This document shows, one piece after another, positions 7,861-62,909 of a DNA stretch of 64,000 bases (positions within the stretch are counted from its first letter, which is position 1; every line of letters begins with the position of its first letter). Made by a program: the position numbers and the translations under genes. The DNA lies in the NCBI GenBank assembly GCA_019614645.1, contig JABWDB010000001.1, forward strand, positions 20,129,501-20,193,500. Reading direction: 5' to 3'. The notes under the pieces are model-generated. The model was given only the letters and a program-made list of their open reading frames with translations. It did no database searches and was not told the origin of the DNA. The DNA is from Stratiolaelaps scimitus (Eukaryota > Arthropoda > Arachnida > Mesostigmata > Laelapidae).

Positions 7861-9955
7861 AGTACAACTTTATCATTACTTTTTAATCATAGTAGTATAT
7901 TTCTCGTGAAGGGGAAGCTCCTGTGGTGACTTAACCTCGGGAGAGCGGCATTGTACTTTTGCAAGATGCCGCGCAGGGCAAAATTGATATGGACAAGCAA
8001 AGTGAGGTTATTACTGAATAGACAGAACGTCCACGAAATGCTTGGCGGAAACAAAAATTTCTGAACACTGTCGTTATATGGGTAGCCAGTGCTCCCAAGC
8101 AAATGACTTGCCAACTAGACTTACTTGTAATGCGTATTTAAAAGCGTCCATAACGTTCCTACCCTTCCTGGACTTTCATTGATAGATGGCCCCCAACTGA
8201 TCTCCCATCGCACTTCTCGGCATTTGCCAGTTGCTCATCCATTTTTGACTACCAGAAGTGTTATAAGGAAAAATTCATATCTCGCTAGGTATTGCGACGT
8301 TGTTGACTCATATCACGTGGACTATTTTTACCTTATGTCTAAATATAATAGAATACGTTTAGATATGTCGCAATGTGGGGATTGAACCAGTGACCCATTA
8401 CTTTTTGGCTAGAAACCTATCTCTTCAAGGCATCGCACGCCATCTAAACAACTTGTTATCCCACTGAAGAAAAGCCCATTTTAAGCTTTGCTAGCTTGTT
8501 GCATAACGCACAAGCGAATACGCAAGCGGGCATAAGCTACCGAGTGGGTGTGGGCCACAACGTACCAGGAAAGTATCACAGATGTGAGGCTTGGCCTGCG
8601 GTCAGGCACTTAGCAATTGGGGTCTTTACAAAACAAAACGAAGGATTGTTTCATCGCATCTTTATATACAGGAGGGGGGACTGTAGGTTTACAGGTTTCA
8701 CAAAGGTGGGTTTTTAAACGAAGCCAAAATAGACAAAAATAGGCTTATAGCTGGGGAAGAAGAAGGCTTCTTGTTGATACAGACAGAATATATCGATAGG
8801 TTAACAATTGCTTATAAATAAATACGATACAGAGATAACTTTTATTAAATCGGTAAAAGGGTCGTGTTTATCAGCCTGTACGTCATAACATGAAAAAGTG
8901 TCTGTTGCGGCCACGCGATAATGAAAGCGAGGTTTCACGTATCTATAATAACACGATTTCTGTAAAAAAACGTATGACTATTGAGAGGAATATCGCATGT
9001 TTATAAAATTCTAGGTATCATCATGAAGGTATAAACTGATTCTCATAAATTTTACCTGCGTATCCTAATTGCACATAAATCACTGTTAAGCTATTCATTT
9101 CGACATCTGCATGAACTGCAAGCCCATTTTTCCCAACTGTAAGCCTCGCTTTGCTCCCCCGTGTTGGCAGCTGATATGAGTGTTGAAAATAGCTGATATA
9201 GACCAAGTATTCAATTGCTTTCAAACCAAGAGATATTTGTGAATCATGAATATTTACGCAGCGATCAGCCAATTAGGTCTAACGAGGAGCGTGCTGTTAA
9301 ATGTTCTGAGCAGAAACAATTTACGTGACATCCACCCATATGCTTGCAGCAACAAGCAAACTATGCTCTCTACAGGAGTTATAACACTTGGCTGAGTAAT
9401 TATAATGGCGAAGAACTAGCTTGTCTCAGGGTTTTGGTAGCAGAAAAGTTCCAGATTGAAAATTTGGCAGGAGGTTACCGGTTAGGATGGACGTTTTGAA
9501 TACCTTCAACACTTGGTAACATCACTGCATTCTGCAAAAGTAAGCGAAGAAATAATCTTTATTATATCAAGGAAATATACGAGCCCCGCGTTATTATATA
9601 TAAAGCATATATTATAAAGCATTTACATTGTTATTATTATAATTATTATTCTATATTCCACATCATTAGTTTAAAATGCAGTTCCATTATATAGTGCTGG
9701 TATTATATAAAGCATTGTAGACATCGAGGTGTTATAAATACCTTCGAATGAATTAGTTTAACAACTTAAACCAACCTGTGGCACATCATTGTGAAAGTAT
9801 AAAACGTTTGATAGTGACCGCGGACATTATTCGATTTTTAATGTATGACAACAGTGAAATTTTCATAGACCACAGTTCCTGTTTGCTCCAGTTTTCTTAG
9901 AAATGACATTCAACTATTATTATATAACGTCTCTGCTCAATCTTCACATGTTCAG
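7861..9955. other. Non-coding stretch with one tRNA-like repeat
   Basis: AT-rich DNA with no supportable exon. A tRNA-like repeat on the minus strand near 8365-8450 is listed separately. Confidence 0.45.
8365..8450 (-). repeat. tRNA-like SINE head or tRNA pseudogene
   Basis: The minus strand contains GGTTCAATCCC (plus 8377-8388), a close match to the RNA polymerase III B box, preceded at tRNA-like spacing by GC-paired sequence. A full cloverleaf could not be drawn and no functional anticodon arm is evident, so a decayed SINE or tRNA pseudogene is more likely than a working tRNA. Confidence 0.35.
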
Positions 9956-11345: not shown

Positions 11346-11584
11346 AGTCTCATGCTGGACTGCTGGACCGGAGGGACGCGGGTTCAAATCCTGTCATACG
11401 CGTAGAATCTTTGGAGTTCTTTATCATCTTTCTTTATCTGAAGATTCTCGCCAGGTACGAGGAAGGAAGAGAATAAGCAAAGGTGGTCCCGACAGGTCCT
11501 CATAGTAATACCTGAAAGGTTAAGAGCTGAGGCCTGTCACATAGGGGAACAGCTGAGGGTCAGCTCGAAAAACAATTATAATTA
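11346..11584 (+). repeat. tRNA-derived SINE (family 1) with 12-bp target duplication
   Basis: A 239-bp element flanked by a perfect 12-bp direct repeat (TTACTCCGAAAG at 11334-11345 and 11585-11596). It has a tRNA-like head with a B box (GGTTCAAATCC, about 11380-11390), a core with a stretch of CTTTATCTGAAGATTC, and a tail with AGCTGAGGGTCAGCTCGAAAA. A second copy with the same architecture lies at 41280-41515 and a truncated one near 15809-15882, so this is a dispersed family in this genome. Confidence 0.8.
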
Positions 11585-16298: not shown

Positions 16299-18065
16299 TT
16301 AGGATGGTGTGATAGCAATCCGCGTTCGGTTGTACGTCGCGGGTACAGCGTGGCCAACATTCACAGGGATTGCCCTTGTCGTGTGGGCCGCTTGCGCGCT
16401 GCTCGATGGCGTTGTCATCCATGTAGCTGCTGATAGGTGCTGTTCCGATGTTCGCCAAATGTTGTTAGTAACCGTAACATTGTGTGCTGTCCGCTGGGCT
16501 GAGGTGCTATTCGGCGAATCCCTCATCAAAGTATAGTATTGCTCATTTGCCAGCGAATCATCATCGAATGCTACAGCGTCATCATCGTTGGTCACGAGGA
16601 CCTCCTTGCGTGCTGTATCGTTATACTGTGAGAACGAATACGCTCGATATGAGCGGGGGTCAAGAGGATCGTAGCGCAACTTGTCTGCCAGATGTGCTCC
16701 GGCCACATATCCCGATCCGAAACCGACGAGAGCACCGACGATCGCTGACGATTGTCTGCTCTTGTCATCAGCAGGAGCTGGCGTTGCGTACGGGTGGGGA
16801 TTCGCGTACACCGGAAGTGGTTGTGGAAACTGATACGGAGCAATATAGTGGCTAATATACGGCTGATAGACATTCGGATTAATCTGATAATAATTGTACA
16901 CTGGAATCGGCGTTGGCGGCGGGTAGTAGATAGGGTATCCTGTGCTGTAGTAGGGTGCGTAGTACGGAGGCGGCGTATTGGGCTGATAGTTTGGGGGCGG
17001 CGTATTGGGCTGATAGTTTGCGGGTGGCGTATTGTAGTGCGGGTATGTGGGGTACTGTGGGGGCGGATTATTTTGGTTATAATTAGGTGGGGGGGTATAC
17101 GGCGACGGCGTCGACGTAGGTGGTGGCGTGGCGGGGTAAACAGGATAGTGAATCGTGGGATGTGGCTGCTGCTGCTGTTGTTGTGTTGCCCAAGGATAGG
17201 GATTTGGATTGAACGTCGGATTTGGATAGAACTGCGTTTGTGAAGGAGGAGTGTATGTTGGCGACGCGTAGACAGGCCAAGCTGTGGTGTGCAATCCAAC
17301 GGGACGGTAAACGGCAGGCGCTATTCGTATTGGACTCATCGTCGTTGGCCGAACTGAAATGTATAACAAGAATAACAGCAGATAAATGAAAGCGTGCCTC
17401 GGGTAATCATGGCCACCTATCGAAATGTTCTATCTTGTGCTATTGCGGCTATTGTATAACAATGGGCTCGATGTAACATGTTGGGTGTTTTCTGCTTGAT
17501 TACTTGACTGAGATAGACTAAAGAAGGGATTCCACTGGCTGCAACACCAACTTCACCCACCTTCATTAGATCACCAATGGTCAGCTGGCAACCATTTTTC
17601 CGGGCAAGTTCACGCCTTGTATAACAAAGCTCACTGACGCAAATGAATCAGATGTCTCTGGCCTTTTGAAATCTCACAATCTGGCCTTTATCTCGCTGTC
17701 TAGCGGAACATTGCCATGAACACAAAACTGTTATATATTTCGCATTAGACATAGACTACTTATATAATATCTCTTACCATCCGGATATTCGGTGAGAGAG
17801 ACTTTCTGTTATATTTTAAATATATCTTTCAATACTGAAAGATAGACTCTAAGCTTGGAATAAGTCTCTCCACCTAAAAACCAATTCTCTCTGCTATATA
17901 CGTCAAGGCACGAAGTTCTCCAGGAGAACATTATGTCTGGCGTTATTTCTATTACAAACCTCGTACTACAGGATTGCCGATGACAACAACTTGCTGAGGA
18001 TATCGAGAGTGAACGGGCGAAGTTAGCGCCGCCGCAACGGCCAGAGTCAGCTGGTATCCCTTCAT
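16299..18065 (-). CDS. Secreted Pro/Tyr-rich protein with glycine-rich segment
   Basis: Two exons: 18065-17960 (donor GTTTGT, phase 1) and 17353-16299 (acceptor after a pyrimidine tract ending TACATTTCAG), giving 386 residues. Exon 1 begins MKGYQLTLAVAAALTSPVHS, a clear signal peptide probably cleaved near residue 20. Residues about 50-225 are Pro/Tyr/Asn-rich with a Gln run (about 93-98), PPPNYNQNN-type units and a tandem NYQPNTPPP repeat. A hydrophobic glycine-patterned stretch, AIVGALVGFGSGYVAGAH (about 239-256), resembles a glycine zipper. The tail is Asp/Ser/Thr-rich with several N-glycosylation sequons. The role is unknown: composition suggests an extracellular structural, cuticular, salivary or cement-like protein, by inference only. 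The long same-strand frame at 16592-17299 is a shadow. A poly(A) signal follows the stop. Confidence 0.75.
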
Positions 18066-39100: not shown

Positions 39101-39291
39101 TGTATTCAACAATAAGAAACATGCCATAGAGACAAAAGTCGTAGGCGATAGCTTCTAATTCGTCATCCTCAGTGTTTTCATAATATATATTAGGAAATTA
39201 CGATAAAGCTTTATTTGTTTATTAAAGGAATGTTAATGTTAATGTTATTAATTAATTAATGCTAATGTTCTTGTTAGTGTCCCCAGGGTTC

Positions 39292-39328
<37 letters not shown>

Positions 39329-42300
39329 ATGGACAAGCCTGTACTACGTTACAATAATGAATCTAGTCCCCAACTGAGAAGACAGGTCAATTACGACGCT
39401 CATGATTACATGTTTCCCTTGAAGGTAGGCGTTCCGAGGTTTGCATGCATCGACAAAGTGGTTGCGTGTGTCGTCAACCATCCGTGCTTGGTAAGCATCT
39501 TTGCGTGTTTCGCAGTACAGGACGCCTTTGTCACGTGCATGGAGTACGTGCGTGGCGTCGATCTCCACAAGGTACTCAAGATCTCGAAGGTGTTCCCCCG
39601 TGATGTCTTGCAGCTGGCAACTGCTCAGCTCGGCCTTGCTATTCAACATCTACATTATAAAGGGTTTATTCATCGTGATGTGAAGGTGCTTACACGAGTT
39701 TATTATAACAACAAGACCACTTCAATCACTCAACATATAATCATAGCATACGATTTGAAATATCAGCACGAAATTTACTCCTTACTAATATTACTTGAAG
39801 GATATAGAAAGTCACCTTTACGGGGAGAAGACTTCATACCGTTGTATCCTGCTTCCCGTTACTGCATGGCGCCGACAGGACTTCCTATATATGAATATTC
39901 ATTAAGTTATTAGATAAATCCTAACATACATGTTTGGTCAGCAGCCGATGGTTGGTTTGCAAAGTAAATCTGTCAAAAACACTTACGTGTGGCTTCGATC
40001 TGTTCCAACAGCCTTCCAATGCAGTCATTATGCCCGACTGCCGCGTCAAACTGATCGATTTCGACACGGCCAAATTATGCGAGGGCCGGTACGTAAGTTT
40101 GACTGCCTATTGGCGAAACACCGCTCGAGAGATTGGGGACCGGGAACATGCTGGCACGTTGCACTTTTACGCCCCTGAGGCAGTTAAAAAAGAGCCGTAC
40201 GGGAGGTCCATTGATTGGTATGTACCGTGTTCTTATGAAGGCGCATTCAGTTGGTGCCGACTGTAGAAGAGTATCGCGGCACTTGCGCCGGCATTTGTAG
40301 CCGTTCAGTATTTGTTCTGTCCGAAGATGTATGTTGACGAAAAGTTTCAGTAGATGGAATACTTCATTGAAAGAAAGAGATCTGCAGGAGAGATCTACAT
40401 TCGTTCAACAAAATCAAAGACAATAATAATCATTCTTGTTCGTATGATATATTTTATTATTATTATTGTTCATAATAAATTGCACTAGGTGGGCCCTTGG
40501 CGTGACGATGTTCCAACTGGCGAATGGATGGATACCCTTTCGCAAGACGAAAGTAATTCGTCAACTCCGGGACCGAATTTGTCAGGGTCTGTTGAAATGG
40601 AATCCTGTGGCTCATCTGCTACCTGAAGACAAGGCCCTCATTACAAGCCTGCTTCACCGCAACCCACAGGGTACCACTATTTCGGCCAACGAGCATCCAT
40701 CCTAGGTGATGTGGGTGATACATGCTTTCCTGTGCTGTTTCATTGTCACGATTTGCAGTAGGAAAACTGGCAACCTTTTCTTCTACGAAAATCATAATCT
40801 GACAGAGGAACTTCAATTATTACTAAGCTTACAATGTTGCTCATAGTTTCCGCATCGTCAAATGTGTAAATCTATAGTGCGCACTACAGCCGCATGTGGA
40901 ACAGGCAATACTGATAGGTAGCCACGTCAGAAGTTCTTCAAACTTCTAATACTTCGTATCCTCGACAATCTGTAGTCTCTCCAGATATGTCCCACTGGTC
41001 GAAATGACTGACCTCTGACGAAAATGGCCGATAAAATTACAGCTCGCCTCTGCAGCCGAAACTATTCTGACTTTCAAAAGCATCCATCATTCAAGGGTAT
41101 CAACTGGCAGCACCTGGAAAAGGGAGACATCCGAATTGATTTTCCTACCGTGAGAAGGTGCATGGCACCTTCAAAGGATTATCTAGGCCAGTATTCGCCG
41201 GTGACATCGCCCGAGGCTGAGAAGAGGAAGCAGAAGTTATTTAGCGTGGATGTCTTCAAGGTTAGTAACCCTTCCAAGGGTCTCCTCGATGGTCTCGTGT
41301 TGAGCGTCTTGGACTGCTAGACCGGAGGGACGTGTGTGTTGCGTTCAAATCCTCTCAGGCGCGGAGAATCTTTGGGAGTTCATTATCATCTTTCTTTATC
41401 TGAAGATTCTTGCCAGGTACAAGTAAGGAAGAGATGGGTCCTCGTAGTAATACCTAAAAGGTTAAGAGCTGAGGCCTGTCAGATAGGGGAACAGCTGAGG
41501 GTCAGCTCGAAAAGCAACCCTTCCAAGGCTCGTGCAATGATGTGTGTTGGAACTGTGGTGCGGATGGGTCAGATCTTTCCTCTGTTTGCAATTTTGATAG
41601 TATCGTAGTATCGGTTTTGTTTGTTCGGTCTAACTTGTGGAGAATTCTTCACGCTTCAAGTGTTTGATTGAGCTGTGCAGCTGCTTCTAGTTAGCGTCAT
41701 GTAGAGAAAAATGTCGACATTTATATAACAAAAGCGGGAAAAAAATAATCAATATCAAATCATGCGGATTCGTATAGGAGGTGAAGGAGCACCATAAGTT
41801 GTACACGTTCACAACGCGACGTTTCCAGGAGTGTATTCAAAAACACCGAGCTGGTATAGTCGTCGAAGCCGAGGACCTCTTCGAGGAACCTGAACTTCTG
41901 ACAAGTCCTTCGCTCCAACTTGCGATGTCAGCTGCTGAAACATGTCAGGTAGCGATTTAGTAAGCTCGAGTTAATGTATCAGCAAACCTTACTTAATCCG
42001 AACCACAATTCGTAGAGCGAGCAAAGACGAAATTGCCTATCGGCGTTGGAGAAATAACGATGACAACCTCTGATCTCACAAGATAGGCCGCAGTTTCGTG
42101 TCTCTATTCCTAATTAGATATTAGTCGTTTACTGAGAGTGCTAATGAAGCCACAAATCTCAGTATGGTAATGACCTCCCGTGAGTACCACAATTTCGTAA
42201 AAAAATTTCCAACGATAGGGGTTTCCGTTCGCAAACACCGTGTGGAAAGTGAATTAACCAATCTTCTCATTTATTTCATTTACTACGCTAATAAGGCGAT

Positions 42301-46726: not shown

Positions 46727-47028
46727 ACTCGGGAGATTTATTCATCGATTTATCATTGAGAGACCGCCCGCCCTATTCAAATATGGGGCAGCGTTGTGTT
46801 ATCTAGGTGTATTTTATTGACACGAGCTGTGTATAGGGTTATGTATATGTGATATCGGGATAACTGTTTATCATCAACAGTCCATATACAGTTATCCCGA
46901 TATCACATATACATAACCCTATACACAGCTCGTGTCAATAAAATACACCTAGATAACACAACGCTGCCCCATATTTGAATAGGGCGGGCGGTCTCTCAAT
47001 GATAAATCGATGAATAAATCTCCCGAGT
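46727..47028. repeat. 302-bp palindrome with 141-bp arms
   Basis: The left arm 46727-46867 and right arm 46888-47028 are reverse complements over essentially their whole 141-bp length, separated by 20 bases. The spacer (46869-46888) is itself the exact reverse complement of the 20 bases just left of the palindrome (46708-46727). Transcripts would fold into a long near-perfect hairpin. The layout suggests a replication template switch rather than a transposon. Confidence 0.85.
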
Positions 47029-47890
47029 TCTATCATTTCACTGGGCCAGTGGAGACAATGGATTACGACGCGCTATAGTGACATTACATTGCGGCATAAT
47101 CTGTCCACTGGGATGGCATAGATACAACATAGTTGAATGATAGGGTCTCCGGCGAAGCAGGGGTCTTCTTTAGTGAAATCGAAGTCTACAGCTTTGGCAA
47201 CATTAAGCTGTATCCAAAATAATGACCTTCATTGAGTGACCTCTAGAGGTCATTTTTTAATCGAATGACATATTTTGTTCCACCGAAGTATAGTACTTAC
47301 CAGCCAAGCTGGACTACAGAACTATAAAAGCGTCACGGTGGTTGATCCGAAACATGTTACCAAATAGATAATGTTTCGCAAAAAGTATCATTCACAAAGT
47401 ACACTCTGTACTCGGTAGAACAGGAGGTAGGCACACTTCAGTGTATAGGCAAGTCTCAAAATACGAATAAAGTCTACAATGAAGATCTTCGCTCCGCACG
47501 TCACGATTATATATATATATATATAATATATATGTTATTCCTATCGTGAGGGTGTATGCGTGATAAACAATCTGGTCCATACACGTCTAGTTTACGTTAG
47601 ACACAAAATATCACTTTCTGCAGCCTCACAGAAAACCACATTCTGTTGGTAGCAAGCTCCGATCACCGTTCAAATACGACGATGTGATGACCACTGCCAG
47701 CCTCCTCGCGCTACATTGATAACAGAGTGATGACCTGAACGAATTCGAACATTGCAAAGAACCGTTCAATATTGTACGTACCATCAATCAAATAAAGATT
47801 TGCCCCGGTTCTAGGTTGCGGTTAGCTGAAAACAGTGTTTTCAGTTGGTCAATAAGTTATTATCGAGCTATTTTATTCTTATCGCACAAG
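47029..47890. other. Non-coding stretch before the duplication
   Basis: Contains a (TA)n tract at about 47507-47534 and no supportable exon. Confidence 0.45.
47872..47877 (-). terminator. Poly(A) signal candidate for GT31 copy A
   Basis: The minus strand reads AATAAA about 150 bases past the copy A stop at 48029. It lies just outside the region shared with copy B. Confidence 0.4.
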
Positions 47891-48028
47891 CCTCGTGGCC
47901 TTAGATCGTTGGAGTTACTGTCGTCCAACGATCTCGAACGACGATGTGTGCCGATGGCTGCAGTTGAACGATACTGGAAATGGTGATAAACGGCAGACCG
48001 AAGTCTACGAAATCTGTCACGGCGCAAG

Positions 48029-51000
48029 TCAAGCCCGGGCGACACAGGAGCAGACGTTTAATGTACAGCGGCGTACGGTAGACGTGAGGGTTTCCCAAAG
48101 CAGTCGCATTTGTGAAACTGAGATGTGATGTGCTGCTATGATATTGTGCATGTCGCAGGGATTCTTCAAGCTAACGAAGAATGTAATTACGAAGAACGGT
48201 CGCGAAAAACAGAACCAAAGACGCAGATCAGGTCGGACGTTAGGTTACAATAACGCATCTCGCAGTTAGCTGCAGATTGCCGTCACGACTTTAATGACAA
48301 GCAACGGAGGTGCCTACCTTGAATGTGCTATCGCATTCTAGGCTATGTATGATCGATGTCAACGAAGAAAGAGAGAGAGATGGGTGCTTAGTCGAAGCTT
48401 ACTCTAATAAGACGAATGTCTTTGAGTGTTGAGTTGAGTTAGCTGCGGTTAATTGGCCGGAAATGTCTCGGTTAGTAAAGATTGCAGTGTTACTGTTGGA
48501 TTTGGTTACAGTGTATCCAGATCTCGTTTCATATTTGCCTATTTTGATCTAAATCGGTTAGGCCTTTTTCTCAGTTGTCACTTTGAGAGCTTTGCCCAGC
48601 CTCACGTTTCGAAATTTGTGTTATTCCGCCTTCACATACTTAATTGGTGATAAAGATATTTTACCCAAGGGGCTCGATGCCGGTGAGATTAACCAGTGGT
48701 ACTCGAGCTTTCGTAGCCAGCATTCCGGTTACGAAGACGTCCTCCAAACTTAACGGACGAGTAGTCAATGCCATCTCGTATAGAGGGCTTAACGCCTGCC
48801 CGGATATAAAGTATAAGCAACCTGAAATAGCCGACATAACAAAGAACTATTATCGCTTAGGCCAGATTTTACTCACTGCCAATTATTTTCCAAGAATTCA
48901 TGTCAGGGCGAGTACACATTAAGACTGTTCGTGCCGTCATATGAGCTGCTCCTTGAAGCGTACGTTAATCTGATATAGAGTAAATGCCTCATATGTGTAT
49001 TCTTTGTAACGATTTGTTGAAATATAGGGGGTAGTATGCTATCGTATGTAAAATCTTAGATTAGAACTAATTGTCGAATTTTTTTAGGTTCTTGAATGCG
49101 AATAGCATTGAAGTAACGATTACGAAATTCGTATTAACATAGCAGTTTCAGTGTTTGGAGAAGATAAAAGGCTGAAACGAGCTATAAAAGTGTCACAGAG
49201 TTTAATAGTTACTCTATGATGACAGCGGAATATTTGATATTTCTCTCCAATAAGCTAGAACCGTGGTAGAGTAGTAGTAGTGGTAGTGATAGTACCCCAG
49301 TCGCAGTACAAATGAGTGAAGTACATCAAGCGACTCTTATTATATACCATAGCAAGTCAAGGCTCGCTATCAGTCAACCATGACTGCTACAATTTACGCA
49401 GTAAGTGCAAGTGAAAGCGCATCATTATTTGAACACAGGCCACAGTACGGTGGCTGGCGTAACATTCTCACCTATGACAAAATCAGGATACATTTTCTCG
49501 GGGTACTCTTGTTCCGATACAGACCACTTGTCATTCCTCATTCGACGCGGAGCCTGATAATAAAAGTGGAGTTATCCACACAGATTTAGTGACGAGTTTA
49601 GTGATTTACTCAAGTATCAGGGGGCGTAAGGGATGGGAAATTGAAGGTGAGTTTGTGCTTTCTTTCGTTTTCTGTGACAGAGAACGCCTTATATTGAACA
49701 CCCCTCCCCTATCGAGTTTCAACTGTGAGACTGACTCCTGTCTAATGCTATGGCCGACCTATCCATTCAACTGTTGCCCCACTTAAGGTTCATACAATAG
49801 GCCCCGATCTTCAGTGAACAATAGCGTTAGCCGTCAGCGCGGTGGCCTGCACGGCGAAGTCTCTCTGGCTGTAAAAAGCCGCAAGCCGCAGGTTCGAGCC
49901 ACGCGACATAACATTTAAGAGAACTCAAGCGTTGTAAAACTGCAGTTCCTTTAATAAACAAAGTGAAAACCGACAACCTATACTACATATCCTGGGAGGT
50001 GTCCCAGGTACACAGTTTGTTGGGTCATAAAGGTGGCCTCAATGCGCTGTGAAAAACGTATGAGTTCCCGGTAAAAAACGGAAAAACGTATGAGGTGCCG
50101 GTAAGACAGAGTATTCATTTGTTCTTATGAATATTATATTCATTATATATGCAAAAGCAAATTAGCAAAATATTAATAATACTAATATAAATATTAATTA
50201 ATAATAAATCAGATATTCAACAGGTAACACTACCGCTTGAGCCAAAGCGGATCCAGCAACAAACGATGTCGAAATCTTGTCACGCAATGCCTCCAAGTCG
50301 TGGCGCATCCTGGCTACATTGACTATCGTGTCATCGTCTGCCTTCACCTGCAAACCCATAAGCAGGGTAATGGTTATATATTAGCGCCTTGAAGGAACTG
50401 CAGTTTTGCAATGCTTGTATTCTCGTATATGTCACCTTGCGGGGCTTGAACCTGCGGCTTTCGGATCTTTACAGCCAGAGAATTAGCTGTCCAAGCCACC
50501 GCGCAGACGGCGTGCTGTAAACCATATCCATAATACGTGTTCACGGATGTTGATGTCAGAGCGTACGAAATTCACAGAGTGTGTGACATATTCACATTGA
50601 GTGATGGAAATTTGTAAACTTCCCTTCCACTTTAATGAGATATTTTCATTCAGGCTTTTTTAGGAGACAAACGCACTGTGCAATCAATAAATAAAAGATC
50701 CCGTTAGTAACGACAGTAAATTAGTGATCTGAAGGTACAAGACAAACCAGATACGTCAGCCGATACTGGGAAGCCCAGCGAAGCATAAGGACACTTTTTA
50801 TGGTCGCATTCCGAAATGTGTCTCTGAAGTCGAATTGGACAATATCGCCAAATCGGACGTGCTCTTCTTCCAGTGTTACCTGTAGGTGGCTAAGGTTATA
50901 TATAGTAAATGATAGTGAGGTTCGACGAACCGACACGACAGCTTCGGAAAAAGGTAGTCTCCAAACGACATCAATCATATCCTCAAATCAGAGTGTTTGA

Positions 51001-52096
51001 GAAAGAAACTAAACAAATAAACCGCTCTCGTGTATTTTCCCGGTAACTTGTTCACATATATATAGTATTCAGGTGGCTGGTAAGTAATGGCTTGATTAAA
51101 ACGATTTCTATGCTTCAATTAACACACCGTTGTGGTATCACATTTATTGATTAATTGATTGTCTACATCCCATCATTTACCTGTCTGGGACTCGTCCGAG
51201 AATGAACACGACTCTGGCATTCACTCCATTTAGCTGCTTGGCCCATGTTTGTCTCACGGTATCACGTCGAAGCTTATTGTTAACCGCCGAGGTGACCACA
51301 ACCAGATACTCAAGATTGTCATATGAACCATTTGGTTGCAACAACTGCCTGTAGTCATAGACATAACTGCAAAGCACTATCGCGTTGAGTTAACAGCTCA
51401 TATATATATATATATACATATTAAAGTGACATAATAGTTGGGAAATGTGGTGAATATCTGCAGTTTGAACATTCGTTTGATAACAAAATACGCACAAATC
51501 AGGCTGACTAAATAGTAAACACTCATCATTATTATTCAATTCAAGGACAACATTTTACACACCGGCGTCTTTGAAAAGAAAACATCAAATGTCGAAGCCT
51601 CACATTTATATATATATATATTATATATAAATTTGAGGCTTCGACATTTGATGTTTTCTTCTGTTTCTGTAGATGATAGAATGCTGGAGGACGATTCGGC
51701 GACTGTAGAAAGTGGTAATGCCATCTCTTCACAAGATACCATGACGGACTCCGCCTGCTCCCCCTCTCAAATGCGTCACTAATTATTGTTTAAGAGGGGG
51801 AGGGGGAGCAGGCGGAGTCCGTCATGGTATCTTGTGAAGAGATGGCATTACCACTTTCTACAGTCGCCGAATCGTCCTCCAGCATTCTATAATCTATGTA
51901 GCACAGCTGGAGATGGGATTGGAGGGCCGCGACAAGGGGCCGAAGGCAGATGAGGGTCGGGCCAACGGGTCCCCCCGGTGAACTCTCACTCTTAGCTGAG
52001 GATGGTATGGCTCGTGATTAGGTGGGGAAGGGGACCGGTAGGCAGAATTAACCAGCGGAAGAAGCGGGAGACGTGGTCGGCGACCTCCCGCTGTTC

Positions 52097-52127
<31 letters not shown>

Positions 52128-52837
52128 GCTGATATGAATGTCTGTCTTCAACTCCCAATAATCCAGCGGCTTGAAGCAATTCTGAAGAGTATACTGCTTA
52201 ACATGTTAACTGTTCTTTTGCAATAGCCTCAAATCTCCCAGCACCTGATTGAGCTGTTCAGCCAAGAATACGCTGTGTAGTTTAAGCTCCCCGGGACTGT
52301 AGCGACGGAAGCAACTGGCTCCTCCACAGACAGGTACCGCGATACCTTATATTTTATGAAAGTAACATACATAGCAAATACAATTAGAGTCATTTTTTAA
52401 GTTGAATAAGATAGATATAATGTCACCGGTCGCTGAACATTTCACTGGTGGGTAGATACACGAATCAATTAAGAACAAAAACATTATCTTCTACTCAATT
52501 ACAACGACGTCCGAAAAGAGCATTCGCACAGAGCGGAAGAGTGTGTACATGCTCGACAGAACGAGTGAAACTTTTCTCTAATTACACAGTTTGAATGTAG
52601 AGCTTACCTAAGTTTATTACACATTTATTCAGATATCTCTATTCTGGCTTGGATATATTTGCGAATATTTCAATGAATGAACCACAGTCGCCACGCATAG
52701 CTGCCTATCTCAACTGATATTCTCACCTGATATTCGCTTTCGACTAACAGCAAGACGCAATAGAAGAACACTGCTCCAACAAGACATGTCCAAATTAAAT
52801 GCTTTCCTCTCAAATACTTTGACAGGCCACAGTTCAT
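48029..52837 (-). CDS. Beta-1,3-galactosyltransferase-like GT31 enzyme, copy A
   Basis: Eight exons on minus, all GT-AG and phase-matched: 52837-52727, 52345-52245, 51366-51181, 50889-50748, 50347-50234, 49553-49472, 48821-48665, 48170-48029; 344 residues. This is the typical layout of a type II Golgi membrane enzyme: short cytoplasmic tail, one transmembrane helix (LIWTCLVGAVFFYCVLLLV, about 14-33), a stem with sequons, then the GT31 domain. Family signatures are YLVVVTSAVNNKLRRDTVRQ followed by TW (exon 3), FGDIVQFDFRDTFRNATIK (exon 4), the metal-binding KADDD (182-186), YPDFVIGGCLYFISG across exons 6-7, LEDVFVTGML (271-280) and a Cys/His C-terminus (NPCDMH, AAHHIS). It should transfer a sugar, probably galactose or GlcNAc, in beta-1,3 linkage onto glycans in the Golgi; the exact substrate cannot be read from sequence. 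The ordinary open frames here are single exons running into introns. Confidence 0.9.
49829..49960 (+). repeat. tRNA-derived SINE (family 2), unit A
   Basis: Contains an A-box-like GTCAGCGCGGTGG, a B box GGTTCGAGCC and a tail CTGCAGTTCCTTTAATAAAC. It lies in GT31 intron 5, antisense to the gene. The same insertion is present in unit B (56756-56888), so it predates the duplication. Confidence 0.7.
50392..50520 (-). repeat. SINE (family 2), inverted copy in unit A intron 4
   Basis: The reverse complement shows the same CGCGGTGGC head, GGTTCAAGCC B box and GCATTGCAAAACTGCAG tail. Unit B keeps only the tail-side end (about 57322-57342) joined directly to downstream intron sequence, so the element was removed there by a deletion of roughly 185 bp. 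Confidence 0.65.
51576..51896. repeat. Two large hairpins in intron 2 of GT31 copy A
   Basis: Hairpin 1 has 27-bp perfect arms (51576-51602 and 51634-51660) around a TA-rich loop. Hairpin 2 has arms of about 97 bp (51670-51766 and 51800-51896) with only a few mismatches. They abut each other and are absent from unit B, so they arose or were lost after duplication. Confidence 0.85.
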
Positions 52838-53783
52838 TATTTGTCACGGAGAAATTCACTCACATAGATTCAGACAGCCGGATGATTGTCTCGGACCGCC
52901 TCTGACCGCCACCATAGACAGGCCTGAGTATATGTTGCTCTCTATGTTGCACCCACTAGTTCATAAAACCGCTGGTCTGAAAGGTACAACTGAACATTTG
53001 GCTGGAAAAGTTTTATAATGTGGATCCGTGTATTGTCAGAAATTCGAAAGTAAATCCACATCTGGACAACTGTGTGCGTTTCCTGTGTGATGACAGACAC
53101 ACATGCTGCTCCATGGTGCTTGTAGTATCTGTTCATCAGATGTGCAGGAGGCATAGAGCAGCACAACTGCTGTTTGTCAGTTGACTCAGCCTGGCGTTCT
53201 GAGGGCATAGAGGATAGTTCCACTAGTAACTAATTCTGCACAGCTTGTTAACACCAAGAGACAAACCGCCTGCCTGCGGACCGATAACGCCGGTCGCCCC
53301 TGTTAATTCCCTGTCCAACTTCTATCCATTCCACGGCAAGGCTCGTAGTATGGAAATAAGAAGCGTGTTGCATTCTATCCTGTAGCATTGGCAGTCACAT
53401 TCGGGCAAGCCATGAAATCCATAATGGGTAAGACCTTCCCAATGCGTGAGGTTAGACCTGTATATGTTTTCAGCACAATGAATATGTCATATTTATATTA
53501 TTTTACTTATTTATTCAATATCTCTCGAATATCTCAGGTTTTAGGTATGTCCTCTTTATTAGTTACATAACAATGCTACTTAGTAACACCAAAGATAGCT
53601 GGCAAAATCAATGTTACTTAGAGCACGTCAAGGCTATGACTATGATACTAATATCCATAGGAATGTGCTCTCGATTCCAAAAAAAAATTCGAAAAAATTC
53701 AAACGATTCAAAACACAGCACTATCTGGGTGATTGGAATTGTGAGGGGGTCGATATTGACATCGATGGATTGAGTTGGGGTAA

Positions 53784-53786
<3 letters not shown>

Positions 53787-53822
<36 letters not shown>
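53787..53822. repeat. (TA)n microsatellite in unit A
   Basis: A TA run of about 35 bp; unit B has only a short interrupted remnant near 60414-60430, so the repeat expanded or contracted after duplication. Confidence 0.85.
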
Positions 53823-53823
<1 letters not shown>

Positions 53824-54614
53824 CAAGTGAGACTAAATTTGTCTACGAGATCATTTTGTATGACTAAATCATCTATAGGAATCGTCGTCACAATACTATC
53901 CCATCATCTGCCGCGCACCTGCAGTCGAGAATAAAATATCAGCGACCTTTATTGTTAATAATGGCGGTATTCGTGCGTGTGAGTCTGATGCGGCCTCCAT
54001 CAGATGTTCAGAGTAATCCCATCTGAACAATTTGCTAAAGGTATATATTATACCAGGAGGGCTAGAGATTTAATAGACAATGCATGTCGTTACACGTGCA
54101 ACTTCGTTGCCAGCAACGTTTAGCTGGCCACCAGATGTCGCTCACACTCATCAAGGCAGAACCTCCTGTTATTATGCTAAGGATCAGCTATGGAAAAATA
54201 CATCTATGATATACATAGAAACACAAAATACTATCTATTTAGGCTATTCTCGTACAATTAGTCGTACTTACATTGTGACCTGATTATACTTAACATGCGC
54301 AACATATTAAAACACATTTTGCAGTAGTTACATCACCTCTTTCAATATGGCGACCCTCCCAGCAGATCTCACTGATTTATTCCTTAGCCCGTTTGTATTG
54401 TGTGGTACAACGCTAATTTGTTCGCCACCGTATTCCACTGATTCACTAGACATCGATCATCCTTGCTAGATCGCTGGCCCGTCTTATAATATAACCTTAA
54501 GATTTAATATCACCTTAAGAACAAAGGCACGTTTTTGTTGACATCCTCCTACTCTCCCTCTCCTGCTGCAAGACACTGGTCTATGTCAAACAGTTGCACT
54601 ATAACAATGGATGT

Positions 54615-54817
54615 TTAGAAGAACATGTTCTTAATTTTCACTCCCATTTCAATCGAAACTGTTGTTGTATCGAGTTTAGTGGCTGGGGAGTTGATAACGG
54701 ATGTCATGGCAGCATCCACAACGGGGTCTACGCCCATTGGGTTCTCTAGGACCAATTCGAAATCGTGTCCTAGGCAATCGAGAGGCCTTTTGATAACGCA
54801 TAGCATTGCTTCTTCCA
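54615..54817 (-). CDS. Candidate terminal exon, conserved in both units (A)
   Basis: After an acceptor-like CAG the minus frame reads EEAMLCVIKRPLDCLGHD and continues to KNMFF and TAA at 54615-54617, about 67 codons. The unit B counterpart (61656-61858) stays open with the same stop, with 4 amino-acid differences and about 3 silent ones. No known domain. It may be the last exon of an unrecognised gene, or an open frame kept by the youth of the duplication. The plus-strand frame over the same bases is also open. Confidence 0.3.
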
Positions 54818-55049
54818 CTGCGATTCACCGCTTCCCGGAGTCGAGGAAATTCTCCTTATCGGCGGCAACGCTTTCTGTTCTATTACTGTCTCGAGGTACC
54901 TTTGTGGCCTTGAATCGTTGGGGTCACTGTCGCCCAACGATCTCGAACGACTGGGCATTGCTTGATGTGTGCCGATGGCTGCAGTTGAACGATACTGGAA
55001 ATGGTGATAAACGGCCGACCGAAGTCAGCGAAATCTGTCACGGCGCACA

Positions 55050-58000
55050 TCAAGTCCGGGCGACACAGGAGCACACGTTTGATGTACAACGGCGTACGGT
55101 AGACGTGAGGGTTTCCCAAAGCAGTCGCATTTGTGAAACTGAGATGTGATGTGCTGCTATGATATTGTGCATGTCGCAGGGATTCTTCAATCTAACGAAG
55201 AATGTAATTACGAAGAACGGTCGCGAAAAACAGAACCAAAGACGCAGATCAGGTCGGACATTAGGTTACAATAACGCATCTCGCAGTTAGCTGCAGATTG
55301 CCGTCACGACTTTAATGACAAGCAACGGAGGTGCCTACCTTGAATGTGCTATCGCATTCTAGGCTATGTATGATCGATGTCAACGAAGAAAGAGAGAGAG
55401 ATGGGTGCTTAGTCGAAGCTTACTCTGATAAGACATTCGAGTGTTGAGTTGAGTTAGCTGCGGTTAGGCCTTTTTCTCAGTTGTTACTGGATCGGGCTTT
55501 GTCCAGCCTCACGTTTCGAAATTAGTGTTATTCGGCCTTCACATACTAAATTGGTGATAAAGATATTTTACCCAAGGGGCTCGATGCCGGTGAGATTAAC
55601 CAGTGGTACTCGAGCTTTCGTAGCCAGCATTCCGGTTACGAAGACGTCCTCCAAACTTAACGGACGAGTAGTCAATGCCATCTCGTATAGAGGGGTTAAC
55701 GCCTGCCCGGATATAAAGTATAAACAACCTGAAATCGCCGACATAACAAAGAACTATTATCGCTTAGGCCAGATTTTACTCACTGCCAATTATCTTCCAA
55801 GAATCCATGTCAGGGCGAGTACACGTGAATGGTTAAGACTGTTCGCGCCGTCATATGCGCTGCTCTTTGAAGCGTACGTTAATCTGATATAGAGTAAATG
55901 CCTCATATGTGTATTCTTTGTAACGATTTGTTGAAATATAGGGGGTAGTATGCTATCGTATGTAAAATCTTAGATTTGAACTAATTGTCGAATTTTTTTA
56001 GGTTCTTGAATGCGAATAGCATTGAAGTAACGATTACGAAATTCGTATTAACATAGCAGTTTCAGTGTTTGGAGAAGCTAAAAGGCTGAAACGAGCTATA
56101 AAAGTGTCACAGAGTTTAATAGTTACTCTATGATGACAGCGGAATATTTGATATTTCTCTCCAATAAGCTAGAACCGTGGTAGAGTAGTAGTAGTGGTAG
56201 TGATAGTACCCCAGTCGCAGTACAAATGAGTGAAGTAGACTGAAGTAGAATGAGTCAACCGACTCATTATATACCATAGCGAGTCAAGGCTCGCTATCAG
56301 TCAACCATGACTGCTACAATTTACGCAGTAAGTGCAAGTGAAAGCGCATCATTATTTGAACACAGGCCACAGTACGGTGGCTTGCGTAACATTCTCACCT
56401 ATGACAAAATCAGGATACATTTTGTCGGGGTACTCCTGTTCCGATACAGACCACTTGTCATTCCTCATTCGACGCGGAGCCTGATAACAAAAGTGGAGTT
56501 ATCCACACAGATTTAGTGACGAGTTTAGTGATTTACTCAAGTATCAGGGGGCGTAAGGGATGGGAAATTGAAGGTGAGTTTGTGCTTTCTTTCGTTTTCT
56601 GTGACAGAGAACGCCTTATATTGAACACCCCTCCCCTATCGAGTTTCAACTGTGAGACTGACTCCTGTCTAATGCTATGGCCGACCTATCCATTCAACTG
56701 TTGCCCCACTTAAGCTTCATACAATAGGCCCCGATCTTCAGTGAACAACAGCGTTAGCCGTCAGCGCGGTGGCGTGCACGGCGAAGTCTCTCTGGCTGTA
56801 AAAAGCCGCAAGCCGCAGGTTCGAGCCACGCGACATAACATTTAAGAGAACTCAAGCGTTGTAAATCTGCAGTTCCTTTAATAAACAAAGTATAAAACCG
56901 ACAACCTATACTACATATCCTGGGAGGTGTCCCAGGTACACAGTTTGTTGGGTCATAAAGGTGGCCTAAATGCGCTGTGAAAAACGTATGAGTTCCCGGT
57001 AAAAAACGGAAAAACGTATGAGGTGCCGGTAAGACAGAGTATTTATTTGTTCTTATGAATATTATATTCATAATATATGCAAAAGCAAATTAGCAAAATA
57101 TTAATAATACTAATATAAATATTAATTAATAATAAATCAGATATTCAACAGGTAACACTACCACATGAGCCAAAGCTGATCCAGCAACAAACGATGTCGA
57201 AATCTTGTCACGCAATGCCTCCAAGTCGTGGCGCATCCTGGCTACATTGACTATCGTGTCATCGTCTGCCTTCACCTGCAAACCCATAAGCAGGGTAATG
57301 GTTATATATTAGCGCCTTGAAGGAACTGCAGTTTTGCAATGCTGGAATGATGGAAATTTGTAAACTTCCCTTCCACTTTAATGAGATATTTTCATTCAGG
57401 CTTTTTTAGGAGACAAACGCACTGTGCAATCATTAAATAAAATATTTCGTTAATAACGACAGTAAACTAGTAATCTGAAGGCACAAGACAAACCAGATAC
57501 GCAGGCCGATACTGGGAAGCCCAGCGAAGCATAAGGACAGTTTTTATGGTCGCATTCCGAAATGTGTCTTTGAAGTCGAATTGGACAATATCCCCAAATC
57601 GGACGTGCTCCTCCTCCAGTGTTACCTGTAGGCGGCTAAGGTTATATATAGTAAATGATAGTGAGGTTCGACGAACCGACACGACAGCTTCGGGAAGAGG
57701 TCGTCTCCAAACGACATCAATCATATCCCCAAATCAGTTAGTATGTGTGTCACGATAACTATTACACGACGTCATTATTATTATTATTGTTCATGCATTT
57801 GAAAAAGAAACTAACCCGCTTTCGTGTTTTTTCTGGTAACTTGTTCACAGATATATAGTATATATAGTATTCAGGTGGATGATAAATTATGGCTTGATTA
57901 AAACGATTTCTATGCTTCAATTAACACACCGTTGTGGTATCACATTTATTGACTAATTGATTGTCTACATCCCATCATTTACCTGTCTGGGACTCGTCCG

Positions 58001-58720
58001 AGAATGAACACGACTCTGGCATTCACGCCATTTAGCTGCTTGGCCCATGTTTGTCTCACGGTATCACGTCGAAGCTTATTCTTAACCGCTGAGGTGACCA
58101 CAACCAGATACTCAAGATTGTCATATGAACCATTTGGTTGCAACAACTGCCTGTAGTCATAGACATAACTGCAAAGCACTATCGCGTTGAGTTAACAGCT
58201 CATATATATATATATATATATCTTGAATCTCATATCATGAAATTAATATATATATATATATATATTAATTTCATGATATGAGATTTTAGGTCCACTTTTA
58301 AGATATTTAATTAAGTACAATCTTAGCCCTTCATTGTATAAATAACTCTGCTGGGTAGAAGAGGCTCTGAGAGGAAGTGAGAGTACGTCTAACAACGTCA
58401 CAGAAGTGGGTATTTGCCAATTGTGGCCCGATAACAAAAACATATATATATATATATATATTATAGTACAATAATTAGTGACATGTTTGACGACGACATT
58501 GTATCAGGACAAAGTCGTGGTGCCGAGGGAAGCTATGCCACTGCCATTACCATATGTACTACAGCTGGAAACAGTCCTGAGGGGCTAGGCAGAAGAGGGC
58601 CGGGCCCAGCCGGGTCCCCTTTCTGAACCCGACATTCTGATCCGTGATCAGGTGCGAAGGGGAGCAGCAGGCAAAATTAACCAGAGGGAAGAAGCAGGGG
58701 ACGTGGTCGGCGACCTCCCG

Positions 58721-58763
<43 letters not shown>

Positions 58764-59481
58764 GCTGATATGAATGTCTGTTTTCAACTCCTAATAATCC
58801 AGCGGCTTGAAGCAATTCTGAAGAGTATACTGCTTAACATGTTAACTGTTCTTTTGCAATAGCCTCAAATCTCCCAGCACCTGATTGAGCTGTTCAGCCA
58901 AGAATACGCTGTGTAGTTCAAGCTCCCCGGGACTGTAGCGACGGAAGCAACTGGCTCCTCCACAGACAGGTACCGCGATACCTTATATTTTATGAAAGTA
59001 ACATACATAGCAAATACAATTAGAGTCCTTTTTTAAGTTGAATAAGATAGATATAATGTCACCGGTCGCTGAACATTTCACTGATGCAGATTTATAGATA
59101 AATGAATCAGTTAACAGAAGCATTATTTTCTACTCAATTACAACGATGTTCGAAAAGAGCATTTGTACAGAACGGAAGAGTGTGTACCTATTCGACAGAA
59201 CGAGTGAAACTTTTCTCTAATTACACAGTTTGAATGTAGAGCTTACCTAAGCGTATTACACATTTATTCAGATATGTATTATCTCTATTCTGGCTTGGAT
59301 ATTTGCGAATATTTCAATGAATGAACCACAGTCGCCACGTATAGCTGCCTATCTCAACTGATATTCTCACCTGATATTCGCTTTCGACTAACAGCAAGAC
59401 GCAATAGAAGAACACTGCTCCAACAAGACATGTCCAAATTAAATGCTTTCCTCTCAAATACTTTGACAGGCGACAGTTCAT
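55050..59481 (-). CDS. Beta-1,3-galactosyltransferase-like GT31 enzyme, copy B
   Basis: Eight exons with lengths identical to copy A: 59481-59371, 58981-58881, 58168-57983, 57635-57494, 57275-57162, 56480-56399, 55728-55572, 55191-55050; 344 residues, all splice sites and frames intact. The transmembrane helix, the RRDTVRQTW block, KADDD, EDVF and the Cys/His tail are conserved. Differences from copy A include Gly to Arg at residue 4, Asn to Lys in SAVKNK, His to Arg and Arg to Lys in exon 4, LT to PA just before the DDD strand, QA to HV ending exon 5, and changes in the last ten residues. None hits a signature residue, so both copies look functional. The canonical AATAAA seen past copy A lies outside the repeated block; here the nearest similar hexamer is AATAGA at 54879-54884, so 3' processing may differ. 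Confidence 0.9.
56756..56888 (+). repeat. tRNA-derived SINE (family 2), unit B
   Basis: The counterpart of 49829-49960, nearly identical, in intron 5 of GT31 copy B. It has GGTTCGAGCC as B box and a tail CTGCAGTTCCTTTAATAAAC. Confidence 0.7.
58226..58285. repeat. Hairpin in intron 2 of GT31 copy B
   Basis: AATCTCATATCATGAAATTA at 58226-58245 pairs perfectly with its complement ending at 58285; the middle is a TA repeat. The same intron of copy A has unrelated hairpins, also next to TA repeats. Confidence 0.85.
58725..58757. repeat. (TA)n microsatellite in intron 2 of copy B
   Basis: A TA run just before AAATAAAGCTG; the equivalent tract in unit A is at about 52098-52121, shorter. Confidence 0.85.
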
Positions 59482-60432
59482 TATTTGTCACGTAGAGATT
59501 CACTCACATAGATTCAGACAGCCGGTTGATTGTCTCGGACCGCCTCTAACGACCAAACCACGTGTGGGCAGTGTTTTTTTATTGGTAGGTGTTGTTCTAT
59601 GCTCGCCGACTATGTAATGAAACCGCTATTTTGAAACGCCCAACTTGATCATTTGGCTAAGGAATTTCCATGATATATATCCGTGGATTGTCACAAATTC
59701 ACAAAGTAAAGCCACATCTGGACGGCTGTGTTTGTATTTCATATGAGATATCAGTCGAACATCTGTGATGCCACGCTGGAATTTACTTGACTGAGTCAAT
59801 CGAGACTTGGTCAAGTGACTCAACCTGGCACTCCGGGTAAGTAGAAGCTAGTTCTACTGGAAAGTGCTTCTGGACAACTCGTTTCTACCAGACGACAAAC
59901 AGCTGCCTGGAGACCGATAACGCCGGTCCCTCCTGTTAATGCCCTGTCTAGCTTTTATCCGTTCCACAGCAATGCTCGTAGTCTGGAAATAACAAGCGTG
60001 TTGCATTCTATCCTGTAACATTGGCAGTCACATTCGGGCAAGCCATGAAATCCATAATGGGTAGGACCTTCCCAATGCGTGAGGTTAGACCTGTATATGT
60101 TTTCAGCACAATGAATATGTCATATTTATATTATTTCACTTATTTATTCAATATCTCTCGAATATCTCAGGTTTCAGGTATGTCCTCTTTATTAGTTACA
60201 TAACAATGCTACTTAGTAACACCAAAGATAGCTGGCAAAATCAATGTTACTTAAAGCACGTCAGGGCTGTGACTAGGATAAAAATATCCATAGGAATGTG
60301 CTCTCGATTAAAAAAAAATTCGAAACAATTCAAACGACCCAAAACACAGCACTATCTGGGTGATTGGAATTGTGGGGAAGTCTATATTGACATCGATGGA
60401 TTGAGTTGATGCGTATATATATGTATATATGC

Positions 60433-60696
60433 TTAACGTATGTGCAAAATGAGTCTTAATTTGTATATGAGGTCACTTTGAGTGACTCGATCATCTACGG
60501 GAATCGTTACCATAACACTATCCTCGTCATCTGCCGCGTACCCACAGTCTAGAATGCTCCCGTCAAAAAAATATCGATTTTCAGGTCGACGATGAGAACC
60601 TCTAAATTCGTTTATAATTATTACGGGCAAATCAGGCATGACATGTTTGGTACATTGCGCAGTGGCCATCATATTCTCAAAGCCGGTATTATACAC
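60433..60696 (-). pseudogene. Open frame in unit B, broken in unit A
   Basis: An 87-codon minus frame containing DCGYAADDEDSVMVTIPVDD. The corresponding unit A sequence (about 53825-53940) is roughly 80% similar, lacks the first part and is frameshifted with a stop after GIVL. No domain is recognised. It may be a decaying exon upstream of the GT31 gene or chance. Confidence 0.25.
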
Positions 60697-61123
60697 CCTT
60701 ATTGTTACCCATATTGGTGCGTATCAGCCTGATGCGGCTTCCATAAGACGTTCCTTGTTTCTTCAATGAAATACGCCACAGTATAACGTGCTGCTAAATA
60801 TATGGAGAAAAACACTAACCTTATTTAAAGAAAGGGCCCGCATGACGGTGCCTTTTTGCCTATTTAGATAAGGCACGATTATCACAATGTTCTCTGTTGA
60901 GTAATCCCATCTGAACAATTTGCTAAAGGTATATATTATACCAGGAGGGCTAGAGATTTAATAGACAATGCATGTCGTTACACGTGCAACTTCGTTGCCA
61001 GCAACGTTTAGCTGGCCACCAGATGTCGCTCACACTCATCAAGGCAGAACCTCCTGTTATTATGCTAAGGATCAGCTATGAAAAAATACATCTATGATAT
61101 ACATAGAAACACAAAACACTATC

Positions 61124-61270
61124 ACCGTCAGCGCAGTGGCTTGGACGGCGAAGTCTCTGGCTATCGGAAGCCAGAGGCCGCAGGTTCGAGCCCTGCCATG
61201 TGACATAAAAGAGAGCTTAAGCATTGTAAAAGTTGCAGCTCCTTCAATAAACCAATAAACCTTTACCTTT
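61124..61270 (+). repeat. SINE (family 2) private to unit B
   Basis: An insertion of about 147 bp flanked by ACTATC (61118-61123 and 61271-61276). Unit A has a single uninterrupted ACTATC at 54230-54235. The element has GTCAGCGCAGTGGC, a GGTTCGAGCC B box and a tail CAGCTCCTTCAATAAACC plus TTTACC repeats. It therefore transposed after the duplication. Confidence 0.85.
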
Positions 61271-61655
61271 ACTATCTGTTTAGGCTATTATTGTACAATT
61301 AGTCGTACTTACATTGTGACCTGATTAGACTTAACACGCGCAACATATTATAACACATTTTGCAGTAGTTACATCGCCTCTTTCAATATGGCGGCCCTCC
61401 CAGCAGATCTCACTGATTTATTCCTTAGCCCGTTTGTATTGTGTGGTACAACGCTGATTTGTTCGCCACCGTATTCCACTAATTCACTAGACATCGATCC
61501 CCCTTGCTAGGTCGCTGGCCCGTCTTATAATATAACCTTAAGATTTAATATCACCTTAAGAACAAAGGCACCTTTTTGTTGACATCCTCCTACTCTCCTT
61601 CTCCTGCTGCAAGACACTGGTCTATGTCAAACAGTTGCACTAGAACAATGGATGT

Positions 61656-61858
61656 TTAGAAGAACATGTTCTTAATTTTCACTCCCATTTCAATCGAAAC
61701 TGTTGTTGTATCGAGTTTAGTTGCTGGGGAGCTGATAACGGATGTCATGGCAGCATCTACAACGGGGTCTACGCCCATTGGGTTCTCTAGGACTAAGTCC
61801 AAATCGTGTCCTAGGCAATCGAGAGGCCTTTTGATAACGCATAGCATTGCTTCTCCCA
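61656..61858 (-). CDS. Candidate terminal exon, conserved in both units (B)
   Basis: Unit B counterpart of 54615-54817: the frame (x)GEAMLCVIKRPLDCLGHD to KNMFF-stop is preserved. The upstream acceptor dinucleotide AG is kept although the context changed (TAG for CAG). Product unknown, no domain; see the unit A entry for alternatives. Confidence 0.3.
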
Positions 61859-62016
61859 CTACTATTCATCGCTTCCCGGTTTCTTGCCTTCCTCTTTGCG
61901 GTATGTCGCAATTTTTGTCGCAAAAATATAGTAGAGTGTTAATTTAGGAAGTGGTTGCTATCGGTGTCAGCTCGAACACCTGACGAAGGGGGAGTTTTCT
62001 TTATTACTGTCTCGAG

Positions 62017-62909
62017 GGGCGTTTGTCTAACGTCCGGAACTAACGCCTTTTTTTATTTAATGAAACATACAAAAAACCATAGAAAAGTTTCATAAGCGTA
62101 AAGGAGATACTATTTATATTTAGCTTTCTTTAGTGAATCACTCTTGTCGAGTAGGTATTTCAGTAACGAATAACAGGCCTGACCTCCTAATGGATCACAA
62201 AGATATCAATGGGTTCAACATGACCACAACTCGAGAAAAGACGAGTTTTCTTGTACGTTCTCGGTGGAGAACTGAAAGACTGCTCATCACAAGACGATTA
62301 TTATTATATAAATAACTCATAGGAGCAGTGTGTAGATTTGCAAGGTTATCCACATCACTCGCTAGATGAGATATGCTGAAGTGTGGCACCATGTAATTAA
62401 TTGACAAGGAAAATGGTTATGGCCCACGAAGAACCCTACTATAGTGAACAATGCATTCGACTAGTCTTCAACGGTTTGCTTTATTTAAGGTAGCCTTCAG
62501 ATAATCATTATTATACATACGTTTATCTACCAACTGAGTGAAACAATTTGCATCTTGAATCGTAAGCGCACAGACAGCTTCAATATTACCCATGTGACTG
62601 GCGTAAAAAGTACATATATAAGAAGCTGTAGCCGCCCTGGTGTGATGACCATCAATCTTCCAGCACCATCAAGGTATAGTAAACAGCTCGGTATATTCCA
62701 GATTTTAAATATGTATATATTTTTAAATATATATATAATATATGCACATACATTTACTTCAATATATCATCTTTTGACTTCTCTGGGAAAGCACGTGTAA
62801 TATTATATTATAACATATCAATATATAATACGGTGTTGTGTAGAATATAGCGTATCTATTTTTAATAGAGTCCTATAGTAGGATTGTTTTTCACGTGCAG
62901 TTGGCCGAA

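Follow-up and report, generated by a model that had tools for sequence, protein, structure and literature searches.

A very probably genuine and fairly young tandem pair of intact GT31 glycosyltransferase genes in the mite Stratiolaelaps scimitus

Two closely similar GT31 glycosyltransferase genes lie side by side in Stratiolaelaps scimitus, which raises the question of whether they are a true duplication and, if so, in what respect the copies have begun to differ: dose, expression or chemistry. Self-comparison of the window (the whole stretch of DNA that was analysed, 64,000 nucleotides long) shows two adjacent direct repeats of about 7 kb each, here called units A and B, with a single junction between them and unlike outer flanks, the arrangement of a tandem segmental duplication. 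The original prediction had placed such repeats at 47893–62016; the repeats are there, with their limits slightly inside that span, at 47895–61879.

47895–54838, minus strand: unit A, from self-BLAST blocks, with ends set by local alignment
54839–54903, no strand: junction spacer of 65 bp, from local alignments, without a convincing match to either outer flank
54904–61879, minus strand: unit B, from self-BLAST blocks, with ends set by local alignment
50415–50596, no strand: 182 bp found in unit A only, from unit comparison by local alignment
61124–61269, no strand: insertion peculiar to unit B, with ACTATC on its flanks, from self-BLAST and local alignment

The insertion in unit B contains a short interspersed repeat about 78–79% like 49831–49959 and 56758–56886. 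For the 182 bp found in A only, a deletion in B is more likely, because B retains the initial part of the repeat at 50389–50511. A tRNA origin of the short interspersed repeat, at which a stretch that we took to be box-B-like had hinted, was rejected: ARAGORN predicts 0 genes in the window and Rfam gives no tRNA match, so the repeat is kept unclassified. Tandem duplication as an event is ordinary, and we regard the locus as a tandem pair, very probably genuine and fairly young, whose two genes are both intact; about 7 kb with one complete GT31 gene would have been copied head to tail, locally, in the Stratiolaelaps lineage.

Each unit carries a complete eight-exon gene on the minus strand, a strand absent from the original prediction.

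48029–52837, minus strand: GT31 gene copy A, a 344-residue open frame with GT-AG introns, PF01762 at 2.1e-39
52837–52727, 52345–52245, 51366–51181, 50889–50748, 50347–50234, 49553–49472, 48821–48665 and 48170–48029, minus strand: exons of copy A
55050–59481, minus strand: GT31 gene copy B, a 344-residue open frame with GT-AG introns, PF01762 at 2.6e-40
59481–59371, 58981–58881, 58168–57983, 57635–57494, 57275–57162, 56480–56399, 55728–55572 and 55191–55050, minus strand: exons of copy B

Completeness, exon lengths and splice sites are all as predicted: both frames run from ATG to stop, the exons measure 111, 101, 186, 142, 114, 82, 157 and 142 bp in either copy, and 14 of 14 introns are GT-AG. 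The forecast of about 12 differing residues had the right scale and missed the count, which is 13 of 344, with 26 of 1035 nucleotides differing. Against a cut-off of 23, the GT31 profile (Galactosyl_T, PF01762) scores 135.8 and 138.7 bits over profile positions 2–194/195, and both copies have KADDDT at residues 182–187 and LEDVFVTG at 271–278, which correspond to the metal-binding DxD motif and to the E-D-V region, both typical of GT31. The top hydrophobic window, calculated from the sequence, starts at residue 14 and spans 19 residues with a mean hydropathy of 2.6 in both copies, and the same five sequons occur in A and B. We propose that the product of either copy is a type II membrane protein, a Golgi GT31 enzyme that would probably attach a hexose or an N-acetylhexosamine through a beta-1,3 linkage; the solved relatives (n = 6) include both galactosyl- and N-acetylglucosaminyltransferases, and acceptor choice in the GT31 family is hard to predict from sequence.

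Elsewhere in the window, at lower coordinates and on the strand opposite to the GT31 pair, exons of a protein kinase gene lie at 39278–40702 (plus strand), where three open stretches match PF00069: one at 9.5e-12 and two, both under the cut-off, at 5.1e-6 and 3.7e-4. The Pfam scan covered 10 of 186 open stretches, among them a 376-residue one at 16302–17429 (minus strand), rich in proline, tyrosine and asparagine by eye, which has no Pfam match at E ≤ 0.1. Peptides from 7361–7906 resemble what we take to be remains of a mariner-type transposase; two of them, scanned against Pfam, gave one unrelated weak match (E 0.053). The segments 11356–11575 and 41310–41517 form a dispersed direct repeat, about 220 bp long and 82% identical.

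How old the pair is depends on which part of it is compared. Alignment of the units and a dN/dS estimate, both proposed in the original prediction, give dN 0.0167 and dS 0.055 (NG86, pooled coding sequence), with 14 differences at 788 nonsynonymous sites and 12 at 244 synonymous ones; so few replacements have P 0.0099 under neutrality, a value that pools both branches, and the pooled copies look to be under constraint. Noncoding sequence differs at 232 of 4542 columns (5.1%) when 51426–52012 and 52898–53360 are left out as the most diverged patches, in agreement with dS, and at 572 of 5391 (10.6%) when both are included. The predicted recency thus holds for the average, with the qualification that the divergence is a mosaic, so that the average may understate the age. 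Divergence ranges from 1.3% in intron 5 (9 of 680 positions) up to 15–25% just upstream of the start codon, with 27 of 290 differing in intron 3 and 10 of 218 in intron 4; intron 3 against intron 5, a pair chosen after inspection, gives P 1.6e-8. Three aligned blocks, which together have 117 differences in 3230 columns, contain an identical run of 226, their longest; 52 of 2000 shuffles reached that length. The segment 54011–54235 is 99.1% identical to its B counterpart. Partial gene conversion between the units fits this mosaic: it would have made some stretches alike and spared others, among them the region ahead of the start codon, and the 5% would then be a lower bound on age. Regional mutation rate or regulatory constraint could be another source of the pattern. 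A direction of conversion would call for a third sequence to set it, beyond the two units.

The first of the two most diverged patches lies in intron 2 of copy A.

51426–52012, no strand: intron 2 stretch of copy A without a clear counterpart in B, containing inverted repeats at 51576–51660 and 51670–51896

These inverted repeats are 95% and 90% self-complementary, and those of copy B are shorter and elsewhere positioned (58202–58285). A search for RNA genes in 47000–62500 returned 42 Rfam matches at E ≤ 5 and none at the gathering score; the top matches, all below that score, are microRNA-named and lie on the intron 2 inverted repeats.

The second patch bears on what the duplication may have done to expression.

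52898–53360, minus strand: diverged stretch upstream of the copy A gene, beginning some 60 bp ahead of the ATG, with a B counterpart at about 59542–59993

Mismatch in this patch is 15–25% per bin, as against 5% and 2% in the adjoining downstream and upstream bins, and 52860–53440 of A is 73% identical to B overall. Such divergence is not confined to the patch beside the ATG: values of 5–22% recur farther upstream, at 53601–54010. A genome search for a donor, made with 52860–53440 of A by a method that skips simple repeats and very common words, returned the two units only. At the other end of the genes, the units stop 134 bp (A) and 146 bp (B) past the stop codons, which gives the two genes unlike 3′ flanks; the duplication would have cut about 140 bp past the stop codon. 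Within 600 bp of the stop, the first A[AT]TAAA, which we take to be a poly-A motif, lies at +152 in A and at +542 in B. On account of the diverged upstream region and the different 3′ flanks, a difference in expression would be the likeliest functional consequence, rather than one in chemistry. That both genes were retained purely for dosage, as equivalent copies yielding more product, seems to us unlikely, if still deserving of weight: the purifying selection seen in the pooled comparison and the retention of all splice sites and all five sequons in both copies would suit it, while strict equivalence sits badly with the strongly diverged upstream patch, the unlike 3′ flanks and a replacement record that is uneven between the copies.

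This unevenness appears when the replacements are polarised with a Varroa jacobsoni protein (P0001) as the sole reference. Eight of the 13 (residues 4, 155, 165, 177, 217, 218, 237 and 335) are derived in A and one (178) is derived in B, or two if the poorly aligned residue 344 is counted; three (100, 134 and 257) have no assignable direction. A split of 8:1 gives P 0.039 and one of 8:2, calculated by hand, gives P 0.11, so that, with one outgroup, the asymmetry between A and B appears marginal; branch lengths in the protein tree are 0.025 for A and 0.0092 for B. P177, D237 and S335 are shared by B, Varroa and two multi-exon paralogues, and are changed in A. Against this, the A residue at 165 recurs in 12 of the 19 other rows of the tree alignment and the one at 218 in 3 of 19. 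We propose, from these alignments, that copy B may be nearer the ancestral protein and that A gathered most of the replacements, as it would have done probably under relaxed constraint. Copy A might also be decaying into a pseudogene, and the replacement-rich A branch, with residues 177, 237 and 335 lost although B and three relatives agree on them, would speak for it; set against an A frame that is open, with 7 of 7 introns GT-AG and the motifs kept, such a path looks decidedly unlikely.

A shift in chemistry had been suggested by a cluster of changes in exon 4, just before the DDD strand. The cluster is borne out for nucleotides, with 9 of the 26 differences in this exon (P 0.0059 alone, 0.035 over eight exons), and falls away for residues, with 5 of 13 replacements (P 0.024 alone, 0.11 over eight exons). 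As a sign of altered donor or acceptor preference it is weak, because the exon 4 differences include three synonymous ones and the adjoining intron 3 is also elevated; a regional excess explains it more simply than selection on the strand that precedes DDD. That its changes in exon 4 and around 217–237 might have given copy A a preference for another donor or acceptor is in our judgement improbable. Eight of 13 changes derived in A would accord with such a gain, as would the change at proline 177, which precedes the first D of DDD by seven residues and is kept in B, Varroa, the two multi-exon paralogues and the intronless paralogue L005; against it, the DDD and EDVFVTG motifs are unchanged, the excess of exon 4 replacements is not significant over eight exons and comes with a synonymous and intronic excess, and residue 177 is variable in distant paralogues, one of which (L007) has leucine, as A does. 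An expression difference would be at least as likely as such a substrate shift.

Since the duplication is read from assembled sequence alone, it might also be two haplotypes of a single gene placed in tandem. Assemblies can contain false duplications, and PurgeHaplotigs drops whole contigs, not tandem copies within one. In the passages of the assembly description that bear on this, PurgeHaplotigs is recorded as applied (PMC7936031), which would leave tandem copies within a contig; the same passages nonetheless make this artefact, the alternative that the original prediction had feared, very unlikely, because they give a heterozygosity of 0.062–0.068%, some 75–82 times under the lower noncoding figure of the 5.1–10.6% range, and PacBio reads with a mean of 12.60 kb and an N50 of 15.53 kb at 152x, lengths near that of the 14 kb array, and one unit moreover has its own insertion with a flanking repeat.

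Taken jointly, we think it probable that a GT31 segment of about 7 kb was duplicated locally in this lineage, that copy A has since been less constrained, that conversion between the units has been partial, and that the likeliest difference between the copies would be in expression. A more specific idea, offered as a long shot, is that conversion keeps the coding part alike while the upstream regions escape and diverge fast, which would be turning the pair into a single enzyme whose two genes differ in the regulation of their promoters and 3′ ends, the specificity of A drifting as well. In the published literature we found no work on tandem duplicates that joins ectopic gene conversion to promoter divergence, none linking glycosyltransferase family 31 to tandem duplication, none on a galactosyltransferase of Stratiolaelaps scimitus, none on a tandem galactosyltransferase in Varroa destructor and no mite study of 3-galactosyltransferase gene family expansion, the last search giving a plant paper only.

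The pair belongs to a larger set of GT31 genes. In the S. scimitus genome searched (426,401,914 bases, 145 contigs), where the window occupies C1:20129501–20193500, the family search gave 37 matches and the protein search 62, counted by exon and not by gene. By our own grouping of these 62, at least 8 further loci, seen as separate exon matches on both strands, form a cluster at C1:19459807–19582234 (L027, L028, L062, L065, L066), and a further multi-exon locus lies at 0.905–0.910 Mb on C54. Two loci of the cluster are mirror copies, within 19495241–19506630 and, inverted, 19537539–19527659, with blocks 95–100% identical and gaps between them; the outer block, of 3132 bp, is 99.87% identical. 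At C6:9493967–9494875 (L005, L031) there is an apparently intronless GT31 gene with a 398-codon open frame, 40% identical to copy A; it groups with multi-exon genes in the tree and may be an old retrocopy. Identical exon lengths, considered as proof of recency, were discarded in that role: two distant multi-exon paralogues, L061 (C54) and L062 (C1), keep several exactly. Their exons 3–8 were modelled with phase and with length modulo 3 as imposed constraints; both models agree with A and B in exons 4 (142) and 7 (157), and L062 also in exons 5 (114) and 8 (142), which makes an old exon layout probable. The models depart from the pair in a longer exon 3 (both) and a longer exon 8 (L061), and the proteins are 45% (L061) and 44% (L062) identical to copy B.

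Among solved structures, human beta-1,3-galactosyltransferase 5 (PDB 8zwp; the molecule name is that of the entry, the species we take to be human) is the best of the six relatives, matched over residues 91–328 at 6e-28, a distant likeness from which the mite donor and acceptor are not readable. Far closer is P0001 of Varroa jacobsoni, named beta-1,3-galactosyltransferase 5-like in its source, which is 51% identical to copy A with 100% covered and is the sole close protein among the 8 and 23 found by protein searches (the 23 by profile search). The protein tree was built from 21 sequences: A and B, 17 S. scimitus paralogues (two of them the models of exons 3–8) and two named mite proteins. There P0001 is sister to the A/B pair with support 93/97, slightly too low for the star that the tool awards; the pair itself is starred, at 100/100. 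The proposed comparison of copy number in relatives is answered in part: one Varroa protein cluster was found (4 member sequences, 2 contigs), sister to the pair, where S. scimitus has two copies, although a recent Varroa duplicate could be hidden, because the clustering threshold is 90% identity and a hit depends on shared words. If this account is true, a biocontrol mite carries a young GT31 gene pair in which early post-duplication changes can be read against one known relative in Varroa.
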